A DNA stretch of 64,000 nt from Kofleriaceae bacterium (GCA_018058095.1 JAGPCO010000018.1:1-64000), one strand, 5' to 3'; shown: positions 51,106 to 59,567, counted from the stretch's first letter. The notes: generated by a model from the sequence alone, not told the origin. Program-made: numbers and translations.

Positions 51106-54100
51106 TCAGGGCAGCGCCGGCGCCAGGTAGGCCCGCACGTCGTCGATGAGGCCCGGCGCCAGGGCCGCGGCGGCGCCCTTGCCACCGCGCTGGACCAGGA
51201 TGGCCAGCGCCAGCGGCACCTGGCCCGAAGGTGTGGCGAGAGAGAACCCCACCACCAGCAGGGTGTCGTCGGCGGGCGCCTGGCCGCACCGCATCCAGTA
51301 CGGCTGCGCCGCGGCCTCGGCCGGGCGCCCCGGCAGGGTGTGGCGCCGGTTCCAGGCCTTGCATCGGCGCGGGCTGGTCGCCACCTCGGCCAGGGCGTCG
51401 ATCGTGCCGGTCTTGGCCCCGTGCAGGCGCACGCGGGGGTCGGCCAGCACCGGCGCCAGCGCGCGGTGGGCCGTGCCGCCTGGCCGGACCGCGCCGCACA
51501 ACCCGCCGTCGGCGCCGCGCACCGTCGCCGCCGCCGTCGTGGCCTGGCCGCAGTCCCAGGCCGGCGCCGCCGCCACCGCCGGGGCCGGGAACCACGAGGC
51601 GGCCAGGTGGTGGTGGCCGTCGGGGTCGGGCTCGTCGTACAGCACGCGCGCGAAGGCGTCGGCCAGCTGCAGCAACGAGCCGACCGGGTGCACCCCGGAG
51701 CCGCGCAGGAACTGGAGGTACTCGCCGACCGGGACGCGGCGCTGATCGGGCCGATCGTCGCCGTAGACGTCGAACCGGTCGGGCCCGGTCGCGACCAGGT
51801 ACCGCAGCGCCGCCGACGGGGCGGGCACGGGCAGGGCGCGCGCCGCGCACAGATCGCGCCGGTCGCCAGCGCGCTGGCACGTCGCCTTGTCGCCGTCGGT
51901 GCACAGCGGTCGGCCCAGCACCTGCTCGAAGCGCCGCCACAGCGGCGTGGCGCGCAGGCTGTCGATGCGGACGCCGCGTGACCCCAGCAGCACGCCGCCC
52001 TCGATGGTCAGCGGGCGGTCGCGTGACCAGGCGTCGAGCGCGTCGACCGGCGTGGCGGCGCGCGGCCAGTCGAGCGCGAGCAGACCGAGGCCGGCGTGGA
52101 ACCAGTTGAGCGAGCGCGCCAGGTAGCCGTGCAGGTCGGCCGTGTCGGCGTGGTCGACGAGCGGGGTCGGTGGGCAGTACCCGAGCAGGGCGGTCGTGGC
52201 CGGGCCGCGCCGGCGCGGGCAGACCTGGCCCGGGCCGGTCGCGCCGTCGACCCGCAGCACCAGGGCGCGGGTGTGGTCGGGCGCGGCCAGCTCGGCCGCG
52301 CGCGCCAGCATCGGCTTGAGCGTGGAGCCGATGGCGATCGCCTGGTTCCACGGCGCCTCCTCGCCGCGGCCGGTGCCGGGAGCGGTCGGCGCGCCGGTCG
52401 CCGGATCCCGATCGTCGAGCAACCGGGTCAAGGCGCGCTCGGCCAGCGCCGTCGTCGGCGCGAAGGCCGATGGCGCGCGGGTCGGATCGTGGTCGACCAC
52501 GGCCAGCACCTCGCCGGTGTCGCCGCGCATCAGCGCGAGCGCGGCGCGGGTGGGCGGTGCGCCCGGTCCGGGTGTGGTGGCGGCGACGAGGCGCTGGCGC
52601 AGCGTCGCGACCAGCTCGGGCTGCACGCTGACCCGACACTCGAGCACGCCGTCGTGAGGGCTGGGCGAGCAGACCTGGTCGCGGCGCGGCCGCGGCGCCG
52701 CCACCGCGCCGCAGCTGGCGTCGGCGCTGGCCGGCGGCGCGGCCGGGCTGGCCAGGGCCGCCGCGACCCAGCCGTCGAGGCCGTACGAGCGCAGGGGCGC
52801 GAGCGGGTTGCGCCAGCCCACCATCGGCACGTCGTCGCCGTGCGGGTACAGCCGGCGGTCGCCGCCGCTGGTGGAGACGTCGTCGGCCAGCAGCGGATCG
52901 ACCACCGGGGCCGCGGTGCCCCAGCTGCGGGTCGGGCGGAACGACCACACCACGCCGGGCCGACCGAGCGGCAGGACCAACGCCGCGCGATCGAGCGTGG
53001 TCGGCGTCGTCGCCAACCGCCGCCAGCCCTCGCCGTCGGCGACGAGCACCGCGGCGGCGTCGGTCACCACCACCCGCCCGTCCTCGGTCGTGGCCACCAC
53101 CGTCCGCGGCCCCAGCGCCACCCGCGCGCTGGCGAGCTGCCGGCGCGGACCGGCCTCGGCGCTGGCCGGCGCGGCGCCGGGGCGCAGCCGCACCACCGCG
53201 GCGCCGGCCTGCAGCTCGCCGAGGTCGAGCGCGGCCACCCCGAGCGCGGTCGCGACCAGGCGGACCGGGCGGGGCGGCGCCGGCGGCGGTGGCCCGGGCA
53301 GGGTGATCGCCGTCGCCGGCTCGAGCTCACACCGCGCCGTCATCGCGCCGCCCGGGCCCGGCTCGGCGGTCCAGCGCACGGCGACCGCGCCGAACCGGAA
53401 CCGCGCGTCGCAGCCGTCGCCGGTCGGGGTCGGCCCCAGCGTCCAGCGCGTATCGCCGCCGCTGCACCCGGCCGGGTCGCCGGCGAGGTGCCGCGTCAGC
53501 GCGGCCTGGGCCGCGCTCGGGCGCCACGCCTCGAGCAGCTGGTGGTGGAAGCGCGCGAGGACGGGGTCGGTCGGCGCGGCGACGGGCGGGGCCAGGACGA
53601 GCGGTCCGGTCGGGTCCGGCGGCGTGGGGCAGCGCAGGTCGCGCAGGTACGTGACCGCCGCGGCCAGGCGCGGATCGTCGGTCAAGAGGCTCGCGACCGG
53701 CCGACGCAGCGCGGCCACGGTGGCGCGCGCGACCAGCAGCGTGGCCGTCAGCCCGACGGCGAGGCCGGCGAACGCGACCCAGCGCCGGGCTGCGCGCACG
53801 GCCGGGGACGTGGTGAGGTGGGCCTCGCGCCGGGCCGTGGCGGTGACGGGCGCGCTGGCCCAGGCCATGGCCAGCACCAGCACCCACAGGTCCGACGGGC
53901 TGTCGATGCCGAAGCCTGGCCAGCTGATGCCGGTCAGCGGGACCAGGCCGAGCGCGGCCAGCGGCTGGTACAGCGCGACCGCGGTCAGCGCGCCCGCCAG
54001 CACCAGCCGGGCCCGGGCCTGGGCCGTCCCGGCGGGGTGGGCGCTGGCACCGGCGACGAGCGTGCCGGCGCACAGCAGCAGCAGGACCAAGGTGGCGGTG

Positions 54101-58245: not shown

Positions 58246-59567
58246 CCAACCCCGGGCGGGCGGCCCCACGTCGACGCCGGCACGGCCGGGCCACTCGGCG
58301 TCGCGGCGAGGGGGCTGGGCTGACCCGGCGCTGGCGCATCGACGCCGAGGGCCGTGACGGCCACCCGCTCCGGGCTCATCCGCGCCGGCCCCGACCAGCG
58401 CACCAGGCCGGTCAGCCAGCCGATCCAGGTCCGCTCGGCCTCGCCGGTGAACCAGCCGGGGCCGTCGGCGAAGCGGTAGGCCAGGCGGCCGTCGGCGCCG
58501 TCGAGCTCGACGTCGGTGGCGGCGTCGTAGCGGAGGTAACGCACCACCACCTCGCCGTCGCGGTGGTCCTCGCTGTCGACGCAGACCTCGCGCACCACGT
58601 CGCGCACCACGTCGCGACCGGGCGGGCCGCCGTCGCTGCCGGTGGGCCCGGCCGGGCCCGGGTGTGGCCGGCCCTCGTCGTCGACGGCGATGGCCTGCAC
58701 GGTGACCACCTCGTCGCGATCGGCCCCGGCGGTGGTGAGCGCACACGCGACCGCCCAGCGGTTGACGGCGATCATCGCCTGCTGCGTCGACGGCTCGACG
58801 CCGGCGTACAGCGGCAGCAGGCGGCGCAGGCGGTCGAACGCGCTCGCGCTCGGTCGGGTCCCCAGCGCGAGCGGGTTGCAGATCAGGATCGGCGCCAGGG
58901 CGTAACCACGCCCGAGCGCCTCGGCGCGGCGGCGCCGGGCCTCGGCCAGCGCGGTCAGGAGCGCGTGGTAGTCGGCGGCGGCGGCCGAGTAGATCTGCTC
59001 GCCGGCGACGTCCCACAGCACCAGCTCGAGGTCGCCGTGCCCGGCCAGCGCGCGCCGCGCCGCCAGCACCACGCCCACCGTCGCCAGCGCCAGCACGCTG
59101 CCGCCGACGAGCAGCGACGGGACCAGATCACGGCTGACCGCGGCGGCGACCAGCCCGGCCGCCAGCGCGACGACCGCCCACAGGGCCAACCAGCGCAGCG
59201 CCGAGGTCGCCCGCACCAGCAGCGCGGCGGCGCCACCCAGCCCGAGCCGCGCGGTCAACGCGCCGGCGCGGACCCGGAACGTGTAGTGCGGCACCACGCC
59301 GGGCGGGGTGGCCTCGCTGCGCGGCCCGCGCGGGTCGAGCACCACGCGCAGGATGGCGCGGTTGGCGGCCTGCTCCTCGTCGGTGAGGGCCGGCGCGTGC
59401 GCGCGCAGGGTGCGGATGGCGTGGACGATGAACTGGGTCTTGCCATCGCCGCGCGCGCCCAGGATCGGCAGGTCGATGACCGCGGTCACGCCGGCGTCGG
59501 GGTCGGTCAGGCCGCGCAGGCCCCGCAGCTCGGGCACCGGCTCGCGTTCGAACAGCGGCGTGCGCAC
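58242..59567 (-). CDS. P-loop GTPase-like protein with membrane hairpin inside the domain
   Basis: The 441-residue protein (GTG start) has a Walker A site LGARGDGKT (residues 37-44), two membrane helices (LALWAVVALAAGLVAAAV near 128-145 and LLVGGSVLALATVGVVLAA near 152-170), then LELVLWDVAGEQIY (183-193), which fits the GTPase switch II D-x-x-G(E), and ILICNP, a base-recognition-like strand. Thus the membrane hairpin lies between Walker A and switch II. The C-terminal half has YRFADGPGWFTGEAERTWIG. It heads the operon leading to the SEDS-PBP fusion. Confidence 0.65.
   Translation of the reverse strand: MRTPLFEREPVPELRGLRGLTDPDAGVTAVIDLPILGARGDGKTQFIVHAIRTLRAHAPALTDEEQAANRAILRVVLDPRGPRSEATPPGVVPHYTFRVRAGALTARLGLGGAAALLVRATSALRWLALWAVVALAAGLVAAAVSRDLVPSLLVGGSVLALATVGVVLAARRALAGHGDLELVLWDVAGEQIYSAAAADYHALLTALAEARRRRAEALGRGYALAPILICNPLALGTRPSASAFDRLRRLLPLYAGVEPSTQQAMIAVNRWAVACALTTAGADRDEVVTVQAIAVDDEGRPHPGPAGPTGSDGGPPGRDVVRDVVREVCVDSEDHRDGEVVVRYLRYDAATDVELDGADGRLAYRFADGPGWFTGEAERTWIGWLTGLVRWSGPARMSPERVAVTALGVDAPAPGQPSPLAATPSGPAVPASTWGRPPGVG

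Follow-up and report, generated by a model that had tools for sequence, protein, structure and literature searches.

Four overlapping genes in a window of 64,000 nucleotides (the whole stretch of Kofleriaceae DNA that we analysed) encode what we read as an accessory, dispensable peptidoglycan synthase switched by a membrane GTPase, a reading in which we infer the gating itself and to which we give about an even chance. The genes lie on the minus strand, with a LysR-type gene upstream:

59567-58242, minus strand: g1, GTG start, 441 aa, membrane protein with a predicted GTPase fold
58245-57106, minus strand: g2, ATG start, 379 aa, soluble protein
57113-56430, minus strand: g3, 227 aa, helical single-pass membrane protein
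56433-51106, minus strand: g4, GTG start, 1775 aa, SEDS-like / class-B-PBP-like fusion
59644..60543, minus strand: LysR-type regulator gene (PF03466 2.4e-48, PF00126 2e-21)

The whole cassette spans 51106-59567. As the sequence-only reading had it, four minus-strand genes overlap by 4-8 bases (g1/g2 by 4, g2/g3 by 8 and g3/g4 by 4), and codon-position GC is of the coding type in all four frames (0.80-0.86 / 0.58-0.63 / 0.93-0.96). The g1 start has the same position in the proteins of its relatives and is separated from the LysR gene by 76 bases. The host assembly comprises 7.57 Mb in 227 contigs. Profile searches of g1-g4 against Pfam, NCBIfam, PADLOC and PDB sequences returned no usable match, and their relatives were therefore used to identify them.

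Profile comparison indicates that the two halves of g4 are homologous to SEDS polymerases and class B PBPs, respectively, which agrees with the earlier description of a 1775-residue polymerase-transpeptidase. The features of g4 are the following:

53824..54816, minus strand: SEDS-like core, residues 540-870 (hhalign p 2.6e-5)
54145..54147, minus strand: Asp763 in NDYLPVL, aligned with E. coli FtsW D297, putative catalytic Asp
53707..53763, minus strand: extra TM helix after the SEDS part, residues 891-909 (hydropathy)
51109..52656, minus strand: transpeptidase-like domain, residues 1260-1775 (hhalign p 4.3e-5)
52315..52326, minus strand: SxxK motif STLK, S1370-K1373 (sequence motif)
52105..52113, minus strand: SxN motif SLN, S1441-N1443 (sequence motif)
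51403..51414, minus strand: KTG(T) motif, K1674-T1677 (sequence motif)

The core aligned with an FtsW/RodA/fusion SEDS profile over 278 columns (minimum p 0.053 in 60 shuffles), with p of at least 0.37 for the controls MraY, MurD and MurF, and the C-terminal part aligned with a PBP profile over 361 columns (minimum 0.0085 in 60 shuffles). Putative catalytic motifs are retained in both parts: Asp763, which matches the HTDF Asp of FtsW ECL4, is invariant in aligned relatives, and SxxK, SxN and KTG(T) stand in canonical order and are kept in full-length relatives. The SEDS part has many TM segments by hydropathy, its AF2 model being of too low confidence to use (pLDDT 46), and a fusion requires a helix such as that at residues 891-909 for its transpeptidase to reach the periplasm. 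Neither PF01098 (at E up to 10) nor PF00905 matched g4 or its relatives, and a PF01098 search of the genome itself found two genes only, neither of them g4.

The same motifs bear on the reading that g4 is a pseudo-synthase with a regulatory or structural role, one or both of its enzyme activities being gone. The PxxSYGG segment of ECL5 is missing from g4, which has PGFGIDSP instead (SYGG to GIDSP), and in FtsW the ECL5 substitutions Y379A and G380A are inactivating; similarity to all Pfam SEDS/PBP models is also very low. However, the putative catalytic Asp, SxxK, SxN and KTG(T) are kept in the covering sequences despite about 40% identity, and we regard such a loss as quite improbable. With the canonical RodA-PBP2 and FtsW-FtsI pairs, g4 shares the catalytic-loop Asp, a GxLPLTGIxxP segment, the transpeptidase triad and the order SEDS, TM helix, periplasmic transpeptidase. 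Unlike these pairs, the g4 family forms one chain of 1775-2041 aa to which an N-terminal TM region and a periplasmic domain are added, lacks SYGG, lies beyond Pfam detection and is accompanied by an operonic GTPase.

Within the same genus, four genomes carry a second SEDS-class-B-PBP fusion family, of about 1000 aa, single-frame and Pfam-detectable:

L129, 4667-7981: fusion gene of the second family
L130, 1175-4177: fusion gene of the second family
L131, 3950-7639: fusion gene of the second family
L132, 3870-6689: fusion gene of the second family

Like g4, these proteins place SEDS and then transpeptidase in one chain; unlike g4, they match PF01098 and PF00905, are shorter and stand in other surroundings, with no g1-g3 alongside where flanks exist. 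Their existence indicates that SEDS-transpeptidase fusion arose in this lineage without the GTPase, and what sets the cassette apart is its coupling to a GTPase together with the hairpin described below, not the fusion by itself. Upstream of the L129 fusion gene stands a small gene with no known family.

The genomic distribution ties g4 to its three partners. The carriers are a small number of myxobacteria from soil and freshwater. We found g1 in 10 of the 318 genomes of the class, all from one myxobacterial family (about 30 genomes), and detected the transpeptidase part of g4 in nine; eight genomes carry both, two g1 only and one g4 only, these last three being cases of contig edges or fragmented assemblies. 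Co-occurrence of g1 and g4 gives a Fisher p of 6e-5 within the family and of 1.7e-13 at class level, the latter inflated by shared ancestry. The complete g1-g2-g3-g4 order recurs at three further loci (L008, L017 and L018) and is partial, up to the contig end, in L009, L010 and L021; the related contigs carry the labels Deltaproteobacteria, Myxococcales and Kofleriaceae. The sequence-only reading had proposed a neighbourhood survey as its check and, as the refuting outcome, SEDS-PBP homologues never beside the other three genes; the same order was seen wherever contigs allow, with the genes adjacent on every informative contig. Synteny and co-occurrence together rule out a chance adjacency of g1-g4. 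A viral origin was likewise rejected, with no relatives of g1 or g2 among viral contigs. Among 379 sampled genomes of the phylum, no case of the cassette was found outside the family. Pairwise dN/dS is 0.28-0.47 for each of g1, g2, g3 and g4, indicating that all four genes are maintained by purifying selection, and the patchy occurrence across the family implies that the cassette is not essential. The same genome also has an ordinary FtsW, a RodA adjoining PBP2 and seven Pfam-type transpeptidase matches, which argues that the cassette is accessory.

The LysR gene noted earlier just upstream of the operon is a feature of the window and of the L009 and L010 lineages, where homologues near the cassette are 55-61% identical (tblastn), and its linkage is not general to all loci; the LysR-type protein is a possible regulator of the cassette. 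In L009 and L010, a gene for a small MscS-type mechanosensitive channel (L009:3451-4254, L010:16302-17111), absent from the window, sits between LysR and g1, directly upstream of the latter. Elsewhere in the window, a CxxCxxCC metal-chelating-domain gene (60624-61391) is divergent from LysR, and downstream of the operon, on its strand, lies a VTC-domain (polyphosphate polymerase-type) gene (49321-50151), followed by a DUF2490 gene (47994-49139). Four similar proteins (24166-29514, 38553-41966, 45172-46935 and 61421-63715), two of them longer than 1100 aa, have in common a segment that can be aligned with a Ser/Thr protein kinase domain, which Pfam confirms only for 61421-63715.

The candidate switch is g1, whose relatives are 35-57% identical and which had been described as a GTPase-like membrane protein, a description that the predicted fold and the membrane hairpin uphold:

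59436..59459, minus strand: P-loop G1 motif GARGDGKT, residues 37-44, with G-x4-GKT invariant in 10 relatives
59058..59189, minus strand: two-helix membrane hairpin, residues 127-170 (hydropathy and model secondary-structure order)
58998..59012, minus strand: G3 motif DVAGE, residues 186-190, invariant in 10 sequences

An AF2 model built from 10 sequences (pLDDT 73, pTM 0.74) predicts a Ras-like / TRAFAC GTPase fold for g1. The model matches Rab32, Rab38, Roc domains, EF-Tu and G-alpha with Z 10.5-11.8 over about 155-195 residues, the best match being Rab32 (Z 11.8 over 165 residues); Foldseek alone ranked the same families top with an E-value that was not significant. The hairpin is located between beta2/switch I and beta3/switch II, which could make the nucleotide state directly readable within the membrane. 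WDVAGE is invariant among the relatives, and its Glu occupies the position of Ras Gln61, as in DO-GTPases, a group whose defining feature is a Walker B Glu (PMC7159879). For profile comparison, residues 101-178 (the hairpin region) were cut from the alignment before hhalign. The hairpin-less g1 then matched a zinc-ribbon DO-GTPase2 profile from the same phylum with p 5.6e-5 over 211 columns, against p of at least 0.09 for EF-Tu, EF-G, Era, FtsY and FtsE and a minimum p of 0.017 in 60 column-shuffled versions. Agreement with single DO-GTPases was uneven (p 2e-5 to 0.19), and the Pfam DO-GTPase models PF19993/PF19975 gave no match to g1. Generic GTPases (EF-Tu, EF-G, Era, FtsY) and the ABC protein FtsE were rejected as relatives of g1 for want of a sequence-profile match. 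The (N/T)KxD guanine-specificity motif is degraded, with NRW or TRA in its place and the specificity Asp missing; we therefore term g1 DO-GTPase-like, and its nucleotide may or may not be GTP. These comparisons suggest that g1 is distantly DO-GTPase-like, in line with the earlier proposal of a relation to GTPase-centred systems.

In g2, about 100 conserved N-terminal aa (WLQKHPTP...APxDGRxYxGL) are followed by a variable linker and a C-terminal part that looks helical by inspection. The acidic run noted in the sequence-only reading stands for the window and L015; it belongs to the variable linker and is non-acidic in the other six relatives (two of eight sequences acidic). The designation of g2 as GAP1-N-like found no support: Pfam GAP1-N1 and GAP1-N2 gave no match in the Pfam scan or the genome family searches, and three rounds of profile-profile comparison with GAP1 profiles gave p 0.15-0.36, with a weak, sensible register that was not significant. 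Position agrees, g2 being encoded directly downstream of the GTPase gene as GAP1 is, and it is possible that g2 is a very diverged GAP1. The coiled-coil membrane protein described earlier was recovered in g3, which has a charged helical N-terminal region (coiled-coil-like by inspection), one TM helix and a Pro/Ala-rich tail, a layout kept in L008, L009, L017 and L018:

56703..56759, minus strand: transmembrane helix of g3, residues 119-137 (hydropathy)

PADLOC defence profiles gave nothing for the cassette proteins beyond a weak LeoA match of g3 (E 0.0074), within its charged helical stretch.

These relations raise the reading of a DO-GTPase/GAP1-type conflict or stress cassette, which would sense envelope attack by phage, predator or antibiotic and deploy the wall synthase as an effector that protects the cell or arrests growth. 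With DO-GTPase/GAP1 systems the cassette shares a TRAFAC GTPase with the DxxGE Glu, a second conserved gene directly after it (g2, in the GAP1 position), membrane-linked components and the DO-GTPase2 profile match of hairpin-less g1; peptidoglycan-binding domains and action at the membrane are frequent among DO-GTPase/GAP1-N2 systems (PMC7159879), and the patchy distribution within one family of presumably social bacteria fits as well. The cassette differs from those systems in its single GTPase, interswitch membrane hairpin, degraded NKxD and fixed peptidoglycan synthase output, and in having no zinc ribbon and no recognisable GAP1. No known effector domain and no substantial PADLOC match were seen in it, its g4 is constant, with no effector swapping, and SEDS or transpeptidases go unmentioned in the account of DO-GTPase systems by Kaur et al. 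2020 (PMC7159879). A conflict role, with the distant DO-GTPase relation as its ground, is possible, and we consider this reading unlikely overall. Canonical DO-GTPase/GAP1-N1 systems occur in other members of the phylum, with GAP1 fused to EAD1 (L056) or to CHAT (L058).

For the accessory synthase that we favour, the following working scheme can be proposed. The single polypeptide g4 would polymerise lipid II with its SEDS-like part and cross-link the strands with its class-B-PBP-like part. The switch would be g1, a DO-GTPase-like Ras-fold protein held at the membrane by the hairpin between its two switch regions. The cytoplasmic g2 would most likely sense a signal and/or set the nucleotide cycle of g1, and g3, by way of its helical part and lone TM helix, would connect the switch on the cytoplasmic side with the synthase, so that g1-g3 might gate or place g4 on demand, e.g., for wall repair, development or polarity. 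We infer GTP hydrolysis by g1, the binding of g4 by g1-g3 and the gating or placing of g4. The control of RodA/PBP2 by MglA and MglB in Myxococcus, described below, is a precedent for this scheme; the degraded (N/T)KxD motif of g1, the replaced SYGG segment and low-confidence SEDS model of g4 and the absence of a family match for g2 weigh against it. More tentatively, and at somewhat less than an even chance, a Ras-fold switch with an interswitch transmembrane hairpin and two adaptors may directly gate a single-chain polymerase/cross-linker, which would make the cassette a cell-wall machine of a new class.

A further reading makes the cassette a developmental or polarity module in which the membrane GTPase would direct the fused synthase to a pole, septum or spore. 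A precedent exists among myxobacteria, where MglA, a Ras-like GTPase of Myxococcus xanthus, together with MglB spatially restricts the RodA/PBP2 system, acting through MreB and motility motors (PMC8144978). The likeness to the cassette lies in a Ras-like GTPase influencing a SEDS-bPBP machine; the module would work in the same way through its own hairpin and g3 rather than MreB, and a helical, single-pass g3 and an accessory distribution are consistent with it. MglA differs in being a soluble protein whose gene stands apart from those of RodA/PBP2. On the other side, g1 lies nearer to DO-GTPases than to the generic GTPases compared (EF-Tu, EF-G, Era and FtsY), and no roadblock/MglB-type partner was recognised; we think this reading, too, rather improbable.

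The make-up of the cassette matched no described system that we found, in agreement with the sequence-only reading, and the literature searched yielded no paper on natural SEDS-PBP fusions or on a GTPase-SEDS operon. Antibiotics target SEDS-bPBP synthases, whose mode of activation is an open question in the field; most of the activators described are membrane or periplasmic proteins or cytoskeletal filaments. With its co-inherited GTPase anchored between the switches, beside a one-chain synthase, the cassette would offer a minimal four-protein test of nucleotide-gated wall synthesis and, if the reading is true, would extend DO-GTPase-like systems to peptidoglycan synthesis.
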